This document shows, one piece after another, positions 9,711 through 16,211 of a stretch of 23,022 nucleotides of DNA (its first letter is position 1; each line of letters begins with the position of its first letter). The position numbers and the translations under genes were made by a program. The stretch is from a virus: the IMG/VR virus record IMGVR_UViG_3300005541_000023, positions 1-23,022 of that record. The stretch is one strand, 5' to 3'. The notes under the pieces were generated by a model, which saw nothing but the letters and a program-made list of their open reading frames with translations, was not told where the DNA came from and did not search any database.

Positions 9711-10475
9711 ATGCCTCAGGATCTCATCCGTGGAATGGCTGACTTGTCATCAACGCCCATCGGGATTGCTCAGGCTGAGCATCTAGGTGCCCGCATCGCA
9801 CATAAAGGTGGGATAGACAGCGTGATGGCCGGTCCCCTTATAAGGACTCGGCAACTGGCGGCTGCCATCCTTCGCCATAATCCTCGTGCCCAAATGGCTG
9901 GTGTGACTAAGGGACTGCTGCCTTGGGCGTCTGGGGAGTTTGAGGGTGCCCCGATAGACGTAGTGCATGGGGAGATGGCTCACTACATCCGCAACCCCCA
10001 TATCCCCTTTCCCGGTGTGTCCCCCTATTCTGGAATACCCGGTGAGTCCTTAGATCAGTTCTGGAAGGGCAGGCTAGCCCCTCATGTATATAAGAGGTAT
10101 GCCAGTCTTAGGCCGGGTGAGAAGGCACTGGACGCCACTCACTATAGGGACATCCGCACTGTTAGGGCACACATCCTAGCCGGAGCTAAACCTGATCTCT
10201 CCATTGATAAGGATGCTTTGATCCAGAAGGACCACACGGAGCCAGGGTCCTTGTTCAAGATCACATTGGGTCCCAATCCTGACTTCCAGCATATCAACCT
10301 TAATGAGGATACTCCGCTTGAGCCAGGATACTACATGGCTCGTCATGGAGCCACGCAGTGGTCAAAAGAGAACACGACTGGGGAGGGGTTGGATAATCTG
10401 AGGCAGAATCCCCATGGGAATCACATCCTTCGAGGACTGGGGCTAGGACTTGGGAGGGGAATCCGTGGCATTTGA
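9711..10475 (+). CDS. Histidine-phosphatase superfamily protein with permuted order
   Basis: 254 aa, ATG at 9711 with AGGA upstream. It has the hallmarks of the phosphoglycerate-mutase-like histidine phosphatases, but in an unusual order. The N-terminus begins where the family normally has its second block (DLIRGMADLSSTPIGIAQAE), then AGPLIRTRQLAAAI (second Arg pocket), GEFEG (acid residue, E76) and ATHYRDIR (second catalytic His, H144). The nucleophile motif RHGATQW (R211-H212) is at the C-terminus instead of the N-terminus. All expected active-site residues are present. This suggests a circular permutation and probably an active phosphomonoesterase; the substrate is unknown. It overlaps the next gene by 11 bp. 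Confidence 0.7.
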   Translation: MPQDLIRGMADLSSTPIGIAQAEHLGARIAHKGGIDSVMAGPLIRTRQLAAAILRHNPRAQMAGVTKGLLPWASGEFEGAPIDVVHGEMAHYIRNPHIPFPGVSPYSGIPGESLDQFWKGRLAPHVYKRYASLRPGEKALDATHYRDIRTVRAHILAGAKPDLSIDKDALIQKDHTEPGSLFKITLGPNPDFQHINLNEDTPLEPGYYMARHGATQWSKENTTGEGLDNLRQNPHGNHILRGLGLGLGRGIRGI

Positions 10476-12269: not shown

Positions 12270-12764
12270 ATGGCCCAGAAAGAAATCCCGATTGAGTCTC
12301 ATCCCCAGTTAATGGAGATCACTAGGAGAATCCTCCGGGGTGAGCCGCCCAGCCTGATTGCAAAGACAGTTAGGCCCCCTCTTAGGCCCAAACAGGTATC
12401 TCAGTATATTGCCGTGTCTATCAGGAAGGCTCAGAACAACGCTGACTTGCTGCCTGAATTGGCTACCTCCATGAACCGGGAGTTCGTGCGGCAGGAACTT
12501 GAGGAAGAGTTAGCTAGGACTTCCGCCCGCAGGGAGAGGTGGATTGAGGCCGCTGAGAATGATGCCCAAGTGGATGCCGATGGCAACGTGGTGAATGTCA
12601 TGAACCATAACGCCCTAGGTCGTCATGATGGGAATGGTCTCAAGGCTGTGGAACTGAGGGCGAGACTGGCTGGGTTGATGAACGAGTCGGCCCCAGCGTC
12701 CCAAGTCAAGGTGTCTGTCAACTTCCCTAACGTCCAGACTCAGGCTGAAATCATAGATGTTTGA
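12270..12764 (+). CDS. Putative terminase small subunit
   Basis: 164 aa from ATG at 12270; an ATG at 12237 adds 11 residues that translate the palindrome and has no SD. N-terminal helical region (EITRRILRGEPPSLIAKTV, then PKQVSQYIAVSIRK) could be the DNA-binding HTH, followed by a coiled-coil middle. The end LKAVELRARLAGLMNE, then VKVSVNFPNVQTQAEIIDV, is typical of small terminase subunits. In that family the protein recognises phage DNA and regulates the large subunit. Its TGA overlaps the ATG of the terminase ATPase ORF by one base, strong support for the assignment. Confidence 0.75.
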   Translation: MAQKEIPIESHPQLMEITRRILRGEPPSLIAKTVRPPLRPKQVSQYIAVSIRKAQNNADLLPELATSMNREFVRQELEEELARTSARRERWIEAAENDAQVDADGNVVNVMNHNALGRHDGNGLKAVELRARLAGLMNESAPASQVKVSVNFPNVQTQAEIIDV

Positions 12765-13714
12765 TGGCATTTAAGAAGTCATCCTCCACCCATATTGAGG
12801 CGGGTATAGCCTACGCCTGCCCCATCACGCCTGAGGATGTCTTTGCCCCAATTTACTGTGCTGAACACTTTTTTTCTGGCCCTTGGCCTTGTGCTTGTCA
12901 TCCTGGACCGCAAATCCAAACCCTAACTGCCACTGCGGATGAGATCAGTAGTGGTGGAAGCCGTGGCCCCGGCAAGACTATCATCTTGATGGCCTGTATG
13001 ATAAAGGGGAATCAGGGTTTCAAGACTCTCAATCCCAAATCTGCTGGATGTGATGTCACCTACGTAGCCCATCCCAACTATAGGGGGCTGCTACTGATCG
13101 AGCAGGCTAGTGACTTGGGCTATATGCTGGACCGGGCAGAGGCGATGTACGAGCCGACTGGGGCCGAAATCAAGCGGGGCAGCAATCCTCCCGAGGCTGT
13201 ATGGCCCAGTGGGGCTAAGATCATCTTTGGGTACTTCGGTGAGGACGGCTGGAAGAAGTACTTGGGTCCTGAGTTCCAGCGTGTCGGCATAGACCAGATG
13301 GAAAAGCTGGCTAAGCGGGAGACTCATGATAGGATCATGGGATCATGCCGGTCCCGATGGCCTGAGATGAAGGCCCAAGCCTTCTCCACTTGGAATCCTG
13401 GTGGGGGGGATGACCTAAGGGGTGCCCCCGGTCAGGGCTGGATCATGGACTACTTTATGGTCGAGTCCTACCTCAATGGGAAATACCCTAAGGGGGCTGT
13501 CATCCGGCACCCATCCGGCAAGACTACCACGTTTATCCCATCTAAGGTCACGGACAATCCCTACTACAGGTGGAAGATCACTAAGAGTCCTGAGGGTGAA
13601 CTGCTCCAAGTGATGGGGTGGAAGTGCAGAACCTGTGGGAAGATGACGGAATCCGTGGATCACCCGGAAGAATGCTCAAATAGGGCCTGTCCAACCAATA
13701 GGGTTGCGGCCTGA
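12764..13714 (+). CDS. Large terminase subunit, ATPase part (split gene)
   Basis: 316 aa. Walker A GGSRGPGKT at residues 64-72, a Walker B-like FQRVGIDQMEKL, and the coupling motif STWNPGG mark the DNA-packaging ATPase. The frame runs normally to PSKVTDNPYY, which in ordinary terminases leads directly into the nuclease domain. Here it ends instead in a short zinc-ribbon-like tail (WKCRTCGKM, then CSNRAC) and a TGA. The nuclease domain is in the next ORF. So either two polypeptides assemble or the gene was interrupted by an insertion. Start ATG overlaps the stop of TerS. Confidence 0.85.
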   Translation: MAFKKSSSTHIEAGIAYACPITPEDVFAPIYCAEHFFSGPWPCACHPGPQIQTLTATADEISSGGSRGPGKTIILMACMIKGNQGFKTLNPKSAGCDVTYVAHPNYRGLLLIEQASDLGYMLDRAEAMYEPTGAEIKRGSNPPEAVWPSGAKIIFGYFGEDGWKKYLGPEFQRVGIDQMEKLAKRETHDRIMGSCRSRWPEMKAQAFSTWNPGGGDDLRGAPGQGWIMDYFMVESYLNGKYPKGAVIRHPSGKTTTFIPSKVTDNPYYRWKITKSPEGELLQVMGWKCRTCGKMTESVDHPEECSNRACPTNRVAA

Positions 13715-13717
13715 AAA

Positions 13718-13732
13718 GTGTAATCATTACAC
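13718..13732. promoter_or_regulatory. Palindrome copy 14, between the two terminase ORFs
   Basis: GTGTAATCATTACAC, perfect, 3 nt after the stop of the ATPase ORF and 1 nt before the ATG at 13734. No SD sequence. Confidence 0.8.
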
Positions 13733-13733
13733 T

Positions 13734-16211
13734 ATGGGACCCAAAAACAAGATAGCAGAGGAGATGGAGTCTCGTAGTAAGGAGAGAATCTGGAGACTTT
13801 ACGCCTTTGGTCTCACAAACGAGGATATTTCCAACGAAACTGGCCTCTCCATAACTTATGTAGAGGCAATGCTCCGTGTTTTAAGAGAAGAGGAGCACAG
13901 AGTCCCCCGATACTCAGTAGACCTTCCCGATCCTGTCCGGTATGCCCCTGGTGATAGCTTCCCTGATCCTCCAAAGCCCAAAGTTGAGTCCCCAAAGCCC
14001 CCCCGACCCCCTAAAAAGCCTAAAGTGGTCGTCTCGAAGGCTGAATTTGAGGACCCCGTGCCTCTTGAGGGGGACTATTTCAGGTGGCTGAGGTCGATTG
14101 AGCCTGAATCTCTTAGAAGGGCGTGGCTAGATGGAGATTTTCACGCCCTATCTGGCACTTATTTTAAGGACTTCCGTGCAAATGGCCCCCTGAGTGGGGA
14201 GCCAGTCGAGGCGATGCACGTCTTTGATGAGGAAGCTGGTCAGCCTCTCTATCAGAGGCTTGAGCCTTGGTGGCATACGTGGGTTGGGCTAGATTGGGGC
14301 TACATCCACCCCACCGTGTGGCACTGCCACAAGAAATCTCCTGAGGGGCGCATCTTCACCTTCCGTGAGAGGGTATTTAACAGGATAGAGCCATATGAAT
14401 TAGGTGTAACTCTGGCTTATGATCTTAAGTCTATTGTGGAGGAGTCACAGTCTAAGCGTGTTATCTGCTATATATCCCCAGACGCCTGTGCTAGGACTGA
14501 GAGTGAGGATACCCCGGCTATTCAGATGGTTCCAGGGATCAACCATGTGTTAGGCCCCAAAAGTGCTTTCCTTATGAAGTTTACTGAGGCTGAGGAACAG
14601 ATGAGGGAGGAAGAAGCTCTTGCATCTATGCTTCAGAGAAGGGATGAGCAGAGGGATCTTCGGGTAGTTCTAGTCCCAGCTAACAACAATCGCGTGGCCG
14701 GTTGGATGCACCTGCAAACTCTTCTTAGGTTCAAGTCCTTAGAAACTGAGTCAGTTCCAGATATGGTTTATGCCTTCCATCTGATGGAGACCCAAGGAGT
14801 GGTTGCTCAGATGGAGTACCTGAATCAGCCTGAGTTCTCTAAGGCTAAGGTTCCACTGCCAAGGTGGAAGATATCTAGACAGTGTGTGCAGTTGATTAAG
14901 TGTCTCCAGACTGCAATGCACAAACCGGGGACCAACGATATTGCGAAAACAGACGCCTCTGAATCTTCCATTGGGGATGATGCCTGTTTTACTGCTGGAA
15001 CGCCGATAGGTGTAGAGGGCGGCAATATGGCGATTGAGGAGGTACGACCCGGTGACAAGGTTTGGACTAGGGAGGGACTTAGGGTAGTCAGGGATGCGGG
15101 GGTTACTGGGGTTAGGGAAGTTCAGGCTCTACTTACTACCTCTGGCAGGGTGTTAGTGGGTAGTGGATCTCACCCTATTTGGGTTAGGGATATCGGATGG
15201 AGAAGGCTTGACTCTCTACGATATGGGGACATACTAGATACATGGTCGAAACCATTGAGTTCAATGGGATCAGATTTAGGAGATACCCAGAGTCCAAGCG
15301 TGCCCATCTTAGAAAGTACTACTGGCCAGGAATTAGTCATCGGATGCGGGGAGTTGGAGCACTCCACCAAGAAGTTTGGAGATTCTATAACGGCCCTTAC
15401 GACACTAGTTCTTTCCACATTCACCATGTTGATGAGAATACTCTCAATAACGACATCCTCAATCTGGAGAAACTTCCCGCATTTGAGCATCTGTCTATGC
15501 ACTCCCGGAATCAGGAGTACGATCTTGGGCATCTGGCCAGAATCCGACCTCTCACTAGGGCATGGCACGCCTCAGCCGAGGGTAGGATGTGGCATAGATC
15601 CCATGCAAAAAGCTCCCTCGAAAAATCTAGGGAGCCTACTCTTATGGTGTGCGAGGAGTGCCGTACTGAGTTTATATCCAAGGTCAAACACTGGTCTAGA
15701 TTCTGCTCCAATAACTGCAAATCCAAGGCCCGTAGGAAATCTAAAGTGGATGATGTTGAGAGGATTTGCATCAAGTGTGGCTCTAGGTTTAAGGCGGATA
15801 AATACTCTGATGTCGCCCACTGCTCCAGATCGTGTGCTATGTCGCATCCCCGTAGGAAGAGAGCCAGTGTTTAATCTATCGGTAGATGGTATCCCAGAGT
15901 ACTATGCCAATGGGATTCTAGTTCACAACTGTGACGCCGCTAGATATGGCCTTATCTCTGAGGAAAGGCAGACTACCGGCAAAGCCCCATTGATGCAGAG
16001 GGTAGATGAGAGAATGAAGCAGTTTGATACCCCCGGCTACTCAGATCACTCCCGCTTTATGGCCCGTCAGATGGCCATCTATAATGAGAGTGGCCAAAAG
16101 AGGGAGGAAGTGGCCCAAATTGGGCATAACAGGTTGGCTGTGCGGCGTGCTATGCTTCAGGATAGAGCCAAAGAGTTGACAAGAGCAATGCAGTCGAGGA
16201 GGGTCATGTAA
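13734..16211 (+). CDS. Large terminase subunit, nuclease part, with intein
   Basis: 825 aa precursor from ATG at 13734. Order: HTH-like segment (about residues 17-50: RLYAFGLTNEDISNETGLS), Pro/Lys-rich linker (about 78-105), then terminase sequence from SLRRAWLDGDF. RNase H-type nuclease residues: D187 (GLDWG), D250 (YISPDACA) and D415-D416 next to the intein. Residues 418-732 are an intein; splicing would join GDDA to CDAARYGL and restore the conserved terminase DDA..DA.RY block, leaving about 510 aa. In terminases this nuclease cuts concatemers during packaging. The precursor should be inactive until spliced, because the active-site motif is interrupted. An upstream in-frame TTG (13704) would read through the palindrome and is unlikely. 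Stop overlaps the next ATG by one base. Confidence 0.85.
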   Translation: MGPKNKIAEEMESRSKERIWRLYAFGLTNEDISNETGLSITYVEAMLRVLREEEHRVPRYSVDLPDPVRYAPGDSFPDPPKPKVESPKPPRPPKKPKVVVSKAEFEDPVPLEGDYFRWLRSIEPESLRRAWLDGDFHALSGTYFKDFRANGPLSGEPVEAMHVFDEEAGQPLYQRLEPWWHTWVGLDWGYIHPTVWHCHKKSPEGRIFTFRERVFNRIEPYELGVTLAYDLKSIVEESQSKRVICYISPDACARTESEDTPAIQMVPGINHVLGPKSAFLMKFTEAEEQMREEEALASMLQRRDEQRDLRVVLVPANNNRVAGWMHLQTLLRFKSLETESVPDMVYAFHLMETQGVVAQMEYLNQPEFSKAKVPLPRWKISRQCVQLIKCLQTAMHKPGTNDIAKTDASESSIGDDACFTAGTPIGVEGGNMAIEEVRPGDKVWTREGLRVVRDAGVTGVREVQALLTTSGRVLVGSGSHPIWVRDIGWRRLDSLRYGDILDTWSKPLSSMGSDLGDTQSPSVPILESTTGQELVIGCGELEHSTKKFGDSITALTTLVLSTFTMLMRILSITTSSIWRNFPHLSICLCTPGIRSTILGIWPESDLSLGHGTPQPRVGCGIDPMQKAPSKNLGSLLLWCARSAVLSLYPRSNTGLDSAPITANPRPVGNLKWMMLRGFASSVALGLRRINTLMSPTAPDRVLCRIPVGREPVFNLSVDGIPEYYANGILVHNCDAARYGLISEERQTTGKAPLMQRVDERMKQFDTPGYSDHSRFMARQMAIYNESGQKREEVAQIGHNRLAVRRAMLQDRAKELTRAMQSRRVM
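14985..15929 (+). other. Intein in the terminase nuclease domain, 315 aa
   Basis: Begins with Cys1 of CFTAGTPIGVEGGNMAIEE, followed by VRPGDKVWT (block A). SGRVLVGSGSHPIWV (His at intein residue 63) matches block B. It ends GREPVFNLSVDGIPEYYANG then ILVHN, with +1 Cys, matching blocks F and G, with the penultimate His and terminal Asn needed for splicing. The roughly 210 residues between the two halves have no recognisable domain in this frame, because that DNA encodes an HNH endonuclease in another frame. Confidence 0.9.
15242..15874 (+). CDS. HNH homing endonuclease nested out of frame in the intein
   Basis: 210 aa, in the -1 frame relative to the intein. Starts MVETIEFNGIRFRRYPESK, then LHQEVWRFYNGP, HIHHVDENTLNND and NLEKLPAFEH, the classic HNH nuclease core, with an N-terminal sequence typical of free-standing phage HNH enzymes. 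The C-terminus has two zinc-binding Cys sets: VCEECRTEF...FCSNNCKSKARRK, and CIKCGSRF...HCSRSCAMS. It begins right after the N-terminal splicing domain (in the intein frame ...RYGDILDTW) and its TAA lies within intein block F. No good SD sequence is visible, so it may be expressed by reinitiation or frameshifting. Predicted role: cut intein-free terminase genes and promote intein spread. Confidence 0.9.
   Translation: MVETIEFNGIRFRRYPESKRAHLRKYYWPGISHRMRGVGALHQEVWRFYNGPYDTSSFHIHHVDENTLNNDILNLEKLPAFEHLSMHSRNQEYDLGHLARIRPLTRAWHASAEGRMWHRSHAKSSLEKSREPTLMVCEECRTEFISKVKHWSRFCSNNCKSKARRKSKVDDVERICIKCGSRFKADKYSDVAHCSRSCAMSHPRRKRASV

Follow-up and report, generated by a model that had tools for sequence, protein, structure and literature searches.

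Out-of-frame HNH endonucleases as a recurring layout within the terminase inteins of viruses

The terminase intein of the window and its overprinted HNH gene

We analyzed a stretch of viral DNA of 23,022 nucleotides (IMG/VR record IMGVR_UViG_3300005541_000023, positions 1 to 23,022; hereafter the window), in which the gene of the large terminase subunit (TerL) is interrupted by an intein, and this intein in turn holds a complete HNH endonuclease gene in a different reading frame. The features of this TerL gene, its intein, and the HNH gene given below lie on the plus strand. The intein (14985–15929) comprises 315 codons, from Cys1 to the terminal Asn, and is part of an open reading frame (ORF; 13704–16211, 835 amino acids (aa), the frame being open further upstream to 13647) that encodes the nuclease half of TerL, i.e., the second part of the N-extein, the intein, and the C-extein, and that matches the terminase family phrog_2 (4.6e-7). 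This ORF is free of stops across the whole intein and has TerL sequence on both sides, with the insertion point in the TerL nuclease motif (GDDA^CDAARY). Profile searches matched the intein to Pfam Hint_2 (7.3e-7) and to TIGR01443 intein_Cterm (above cut-off). It has Cys1, the block B His, and the terminal HN|C with Cys as the +1 residue, and C1, H63, and N315 are invariant across 19 aligned inteins. Besides, the AlphaFold2 (AF2) model of the intein adopts the HINT fold, with the gp41-1, DnaB, and GyrA inteins as Foldseek neighbors (best E 1.7e-5). The N-terminal splicing blocks A and B (14985–15245; profile match 1e-34) are modeled with a predicted local distance difference test score (pLDDT) of 80–96 over residues 1–90, and the C-terminal blocks F and G (15843–15929; profile match 2e-17) with a pLDDT of 89–95. 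Between them lies a linker (15246–15842) that overlaps the HNH gene and that is open, predicted to be disordered (pLDDT about 30–47), and poorly conserved, with low intein-frame identity between relatives. The C-extein (15930–16211) starts with the +1 Cys and encodes the remaining TerL nuclease domain (CDAARY...).

The HNH gene (15242–15874) runs from ATG to TAA over 210 aa in the −1 frame relative to the intein, and matches HNH_3 (3.3e-8) and phrog_15471 (2.2e-32). A previous reading of the DNA made from the sequence only had placed the intein and a complete 210-aa HNH enzyme with its own ATG and TAA at these coordinates and in the −1 frame, and the profile matches together with the open ORF 13704–16211 bear this out. 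The HNH_3 catalytic core (15362–15481) contains the invariant H61, H62, and N70, and is followed by two zinc-finger-like CxxC...CxxxC motifs, the first (15650–15718; C137, C140, C155, C159) with cysteines invariant in both of our alignments (A1 and A2) and the second (15767–15835; C176, C179, C194, C198) nearly invariant in A2. The AF2 model of the enzyme has a mean pLDDT of 92.3. Its best match among solved structures is the homing enzyme I-HmuI, although the match is weak (E 0.007), and a Foldseek search with the model also returned weak matches, headed by I-HmuI at E 0.55. The stop of the HNH gene (TAA, 15872–15874) spans the intein codons TTT-AAT of block F (F-N, in V-F-N-L). The sequence-only reading was thus right in locating this stop inside block F, but overstated the conservation of residues in both frames there, as the HNH tail is unconserved at this place and the intein residues alone are conserved.

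The gene for the other half of TerL is a separate, overlapping ORF (12761–13714) that encodes the ATPase side, the first part of the N-extein (phrog_979, terminase large subunit, 2.6e-10). TerL of the window therefore spans two overlapping ORFs in different frames (12761–13714 and 13704–16211), of which the first ends with a CxxC...C tail and the second opens with a helix-turn-helix-like, proline-rich stretch ahead of the nuclease half; this may reflect a frameshift, two proteins, or a further insertion.

Relatives of the HNH gene and selection on the two frames

Relatives were gathered by two scans of IMG/VR and one scan of bacterial and archaeal genomes, which yielded ~200 loci that were sorted with profiles for the intein N block, the intein C block, and the HNH domain. 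In some loci the C block is too divergent for the profile, and their class rests on the N block and the open covering frame. The tally is based on 192 distinct HNH genes of at least 130 aa, with duplicates removed. The HNH gene lies within an uninterrupted TerL intein frame in the −1 register in 125 of these and in the +1 register in 21; it is located between the halves of a split-intein TerL in 20, and is free-standing with no intein nearby in 24, with two special cases making up the rest. None of the 192 is in frame with the splicing halves, a zero that applies to the HNH family of the window, with which the search was seeded. An exact-peptide scan of IMG/VR with the window HNH gave no match, but an alignment query did recover relatives.

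The overprinted layout thus recurs in viruses of bacteria and archaea, at about 146 distinct loci, and is not a one-off or an error, although the sequence-only reading had treated it as a single case. A tblastn search with the window HNH detected the same layout in the Tetrasphaera phage TJE1, the Acinetobacter phage Highwayman, the Rhodobacteraceae phage LS06-2018-MD07, and a faecal phage contig, with HNH identities of 35–41%, and it is also present in a Halobacterium plasmid, where the gene is annotated as 'Hint domain-containing protein'. The genomes of TJE1 and Highwayman and the Halobacterium plasmid are finished. Annotated records conceal the HNH gene behind the label 'terminase large subunit' or 'Hint domain-containing protein', and wherever an extein has a described PHROG match, it is a terminase. 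Homologues with a broken intein frame, which the sequence-only reading had regarded as evidence against it, do exist, but as split-intein genes with a free-standing HNH, and appear to represent a related state and not to refute it.

Several of these loci deserve a description of their own. The +1 register is represented by L066, L086, part of L146–L173, and L220. Judging by the match of L066 to Pfam Intein_splicing (6e-11) and the intact intein ends of L086, the +1 class consists of true inteins. Its members have a conserved stretch ahead of the HNH ATG (gatctgatacgctgcgttac) that holds no Shine-Dalgarno site and is probably intein coding sequence. L060 (1–2832) and L125 (1331–4132) are single TerL ORFs with two inteins each, every intein having its own −1 HNH, and the two HNHs within one gene are 20–28% identical. 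Split-intein TerL genes with a free HNH between the halves include L010, L012, L033, L044, L045, L140, and L141, among others, and their annotations include 'terminase', 'HNH endonuclease', and 'hedgehog/hint domain protein'. As for the two special cases, L028 (2627–3715) combines an HNH with an open overlapping frame that ends in a terminase-like CDAMRY and has no recognizable intein blocks, possibly a decayed intein or an insertion like the ShiLan domain discussed below, and in L100 (3209–4191) the overprinted HNH is flanked by intein N and C blocks that do not share a frame, pointing to a sequencing indel or to inactivation. L131 and L132, binned as Falkowbacteria and Shapirobacteria, have identical coordinates and identical intein and HNH match values, which suggests one virus common to both or misbinning.

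The number of stops to be expected in each frame was derived from within-gene synonymous shuffles of the HNH codons. For the window HNH these shuffles gave a mean of 2.7 intein-frame stops, with zero in 2.2% of them, so that the open intein frame of the window is mildly improbable on its own and the strength of the evidence lies in the relatives. In the −1 class (125 distinct homologues), 0 intein-frame stops were observed against 277.5 expected, while the unused frame held 2306 against 2352 expected; in the +1 class, the corresponding values were 0 against 193.2 and 190 against 154. In split relatives, stops numbered 138 (135.8 expected) in the −1 register and 329 (376.3 expected) in the other frame, and in free relatives 158 (156.7 expected) and 466 (478.7 expected). 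Stops are thus absent solely in the frame of the intein, in two registers, and close to expectation in split and free relatives, in agreement with the earlier proposal that selection keeps the intein frame readable. The evidential weight resides in the normal third frame, the contrast between the two registers, and the split and free relatives, not in the zeros themselves. In both split and free relatives the −1 register holds fewer stops than the other frame; it appears easier to open, which may account for its being commoner. In the first set of loci, the avoidance of stops also shows in codon usage, as ATA made up 12% of the Ile codons in overprinted genes versus 37% in free genes.

The two frames also differ in constraint, a comparison that the sequence-only reading had proposed. 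In related pairs, substitutions at HNH codon positions 1, 2, and 3 numbered 3964, 3348, and 7208 in the −1 class (14520 in total) and 5047, 3786, and 9147 in the +1 class (17980 in total). In the same kind of pairs, HNH identity was 66% (−1) and 71% (+1) versus an intein-frame identity of 42% in both. Because substitutions concentrate at the third codon positions of the HNH gene, we conclude that the HNH is the constrained protein, and that the intein frame there is kept readable and no more than that. The AF2 models agree with this pattern, with the high mean pLDDT of the HNH and 80–96 for the Hint blocks, and about 35 for the overlapped linker.

Translation, mobility and history of the endonuclease

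The HNH gene stops 12–20 residues before the intein end, within block F, in 61 of the 79 −1 loci considered, and these stops usually arise from codons of conserved block F residues (Y-N, Y-D, V-E, F-D: NNT|AA or NNT|GA), which suggests that block F dictates where the HNH ends. With regard to the start, the first set of loci, nearly all of the −1 class, had a Shine-Dalgarno match of at least 4 bases at the right distance in 59% of 68 overprinted starts, compared with 21% for shuffled sequences and 15% for the remaining ATGs of the elements. A 5-base match was found at 29% of the starts, versus 4.5% in shuffled sequences and 1.9% at other ATGs. Slippery heptamers were not in excess (2 observed versus 4.0 expected), and a frameshift element was rejected on this ground. 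Separate initiation is the best-supported route for the synthesis of the HNH in the −1 class.

Evidence for mobility comes from the phage Highwayman. Its spliced TerL extein is, among the matches listed, 98.5–99.2% identical to the intein-free TerL of Acinetobacter phages, and 42 records share at least 80% identity with it. Compared with phage Acba_21, a 981-bp element is cleanly inserted in Highwayman, the +1 Leu is replaced by Cys, and all 15 differences in the 2,900 flanking bp fall within 200 bp to the left or 50 bp to the right of the insertion. No other phage record was found to contain the DNA of the element. Recent homing with co-conversion of the flanks would be expected to leave such a pattern, which documents a recent movement of an element of the overprinted design, though it does not thereby establish the HNH as the cutter. 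Phage BP10 had also been considered as the partner with the empty site but was rejected in favor of Acba_21, as its TerL is 27% identical to that of Highwayman and the module looks swapped. From the portal gene on, the DNA of these two phages is ~88% similar despite their different terminases, as though the terminase module had been exchanged beside the HNH genes.

Free-standing relatives of the HNH adjoin terL in the phages BP10, PAE1, SN1, and Shemara, and others lie between the halves of split-intein TerL genes in CL2, BL3, Vibrio phages, and metagenomic contigs. These arrangements fit the earlier proposal that a free-standing gene was captured by a mini-intein, with the direction of capture being what we infer from them. 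The HNH and the intein have their nearest neighbors in common in 22 of 79 loci, and the HNH tree (FastTree, with many weak branches) needs 25 changes of state, with a minimum of 7 imposed by starred branches for the −1 class.

As for the window in general, no close relative of its TerL was found in the collections searched, and the locus had no match among phage nucleotide records. Searches for RNA elements gave none in Rfam, and no tRNAs were detected. The gene at 9711–10475 encodes a histidine phosphatase family protein (PF00300, 4.9e-14), and most other window proteins tested had no match to a Pfam or PHROG family.

Interpretation and relation to known systems

Based on these results, we propose with considerable confidence that the element of the window is a mobile intein with an overprinted rather than an in-frame homing endonuclease, formed as TerL-targeting HNH genes were captured by mini-inteins. 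An HNH gene of this kind, which also occurs free-standing beside terL, would occupy the endonuclease position of the mini-intein in another frame. A ribosome reading TerL would cross the HNH gene in the intein frame and produce a long disordered linker, after which the Hint domain is expected to splice TerL. The HNH would be translated separately from its own start, in many relatives with the help of a Shine-Dalgarno site, and would end at a stop made, in most −1 cases, by the block F codons of the intein. It may then cut the intein-free TerL genes of co-infecting phages, and repair would copy the whole element into the cut gene. Stops in the intein frame are purged because the host gene must stay readable, with the HNH protein itself under ordinary purifying selection.

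Several observations weigh against this proposal. The open intein frame was the criterion by which loci were classed, making the zero stops partly definitional, and the homing signature comes from one phage pair, Highwayman and Acba_21, and not from the window. The window HNH start is preceded by a weak GGGGA alone, and the Shine-Dalgarno enrichment is absent in the +1 class (1 of 21), for which reason a Shine-Dalgarno site as a universal start signal was rejected; the start mechanism may differ, or be coupled, where such a site is weak or absent. Besides, the histories of HNH and intein agree only partly (Mantel r 0.32). Together with the shared neighbors and the state changes given above, this leaves a single capture followed by strict co-inheritance unsupported, and repeated capture or switching among free, split, and overprinted states would fit better.

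Other explanations of the layout must be considered as well. An ordinary in-frame HNH intein shifted by sequencing or assembly indels would be compatible with L100, where the N and C blocks lie in different frames, yet it would have to account for about 146 distinct loci in two registers with none in frame, for the presence of the layout in finished isolates, and for an HNH with its own stop, and one indel would not leave both frames open over 160–210 codons. For the class as a whole this artefact is refuted, in line with the argument of the sequence-only reading against a simple indel, and we give it practically no weight. A decaying, non-functional HNH relic that overlaps an open intein frame by chance is hardly more credible: the intein-frame sequence is indeed unconserved, but the catalytic His and Asn and the zinc ligands are invariant, third-position substitutions dominate, and intein-frame stops have been purged.

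The HNH could also be produced by programmed −1 frameshifting, as a fusion to the N-terminal half of the intein instead of from its own start. The predominance of the −1 register, the weak ribosome-binding site of the window, and an HNH frame that is open upstream of the start in several loci speak for this, and make it somewhat less implausible than a relic. However, slippery heptamers are not enriched, and the overprinted starts of the first set show an enrichment of Shine-Dalgarno sites. This HNH family also includes free-standing genes, and a +1 class exists; we regard such a fusion as improbable. On the other hand, HK97-type HNH proteins have been reported as packaging accessories of the terminase, according to the passages in which PMC10448857 discusses and PMC12613952 cites them. 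An accessory of this type, kept for the benefit of the phage and not a homing endonuclease, would be in line with the terminase identity of all exteins with a described PHROG match and with the free relatives beside terL. Set against this are ~40 Acinetobacter phages that have nearly the same TerL without the intein, the Highwayman copy that looks freshly inserted with co-conversion, and the match to I-HmuI, weak as it is. We consider a role in packaging unlikely, though the least unlikely of these explanations.

Two intein layouts are described, one in which a splicing domain is fused to an in-frame endonuclease and one in which the intein is split into halves. The first applies to canonical large inteins, for example those with a LAGLIDADG endonuclease in the TerL of mycobacteriophages (PMC5050341, which reports terminase inteins in the ATPase domain). 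The overprinted elements resemble these in having a Hint domain in TerL with the endonuclease between blocks B and F, but differ from them in that 0 of 192 relatives are in frame and most sit in the TerL nuclease motif. Fractured genes, in which a free-standing endonuclease lies between the halves of a split intein, were reportedly described by Dassa et al. in 2009. The proposed separate translation of an endonuclease located between intein halves is common to both, and the 20 split relatives have this very layout in TerL; in the window, in contrast, both intein halves belong to a single ORF that the HNH gene overprints, and splicing would be expected in cis. In collaborative homing, a free-standing endonuclease targets the insertion site of a nearby intron (PMC10448857). 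The similarity to this system lies in the probable source, namely free-standing HNH genes that neighbor the target gene, but here endonuclease and splicing element are nested and would be expected to move together.

A parallel in reading frame is the ShiLan domain, a hidden out-of-frame HNH in phage DNA methylases, which has no detectable splicing domains and for which splicing is not predicted (Arsenault, Gosselin, Gogarten 2025, PMC11855218). ShiLan and the elements described here have in common a zinc-finger HNH out of frame within an uninterrupted host-gene frame and a homing-like distribution. Unlike in ShiLan, the HNH is flanked here by complete Hint blocks and has TerL as its host gene, it occurs in two registers, and the purging of stops was measured. 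A 2025 preprint by Gosselin, Arsenault, and Gogarten (bioRxiv 10.1101/2025.01.02.630785) is said, by its title, to deal with actinobacteriophage inteins of non-canonical architecture. No description of an out-of-frame endonuclease inside a true intein was found in the literature searched, the coverage of which is incomplete, and there is a real chance that part of the arrangement has already been described elsewhere.

Taken more broadly, we think it probable, if less firmly so than for the proposal itself, that these elements form a class of inteins, spread over bacterial and archaeal viruses, that never fuses its endonuclease to the splicing domain and overprints it in either frame instead, that this class arose repeatedly from free or split states, that splicing and homing evolve independently in it, and that the intein frame constitutes a very large natural collection of overprinted genes, with selection on one of the two sides acting on readability only. 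The overprinted endonuclease is a third and common intein arrangement, hidden by standard annotation, and there may be unrecognized out-of-frame genes among the long mini-intein linkers of phage databases. The two registers, with many replicates and with split and free relatives as controls, offer a natural experiment in overprinting. Since splicing and cleavage would be carried by two separate proteins, each could be studied without the other, and the arrangement suggests a testable route by which free-standing homing genes and mini-inteins may become one mobile element.

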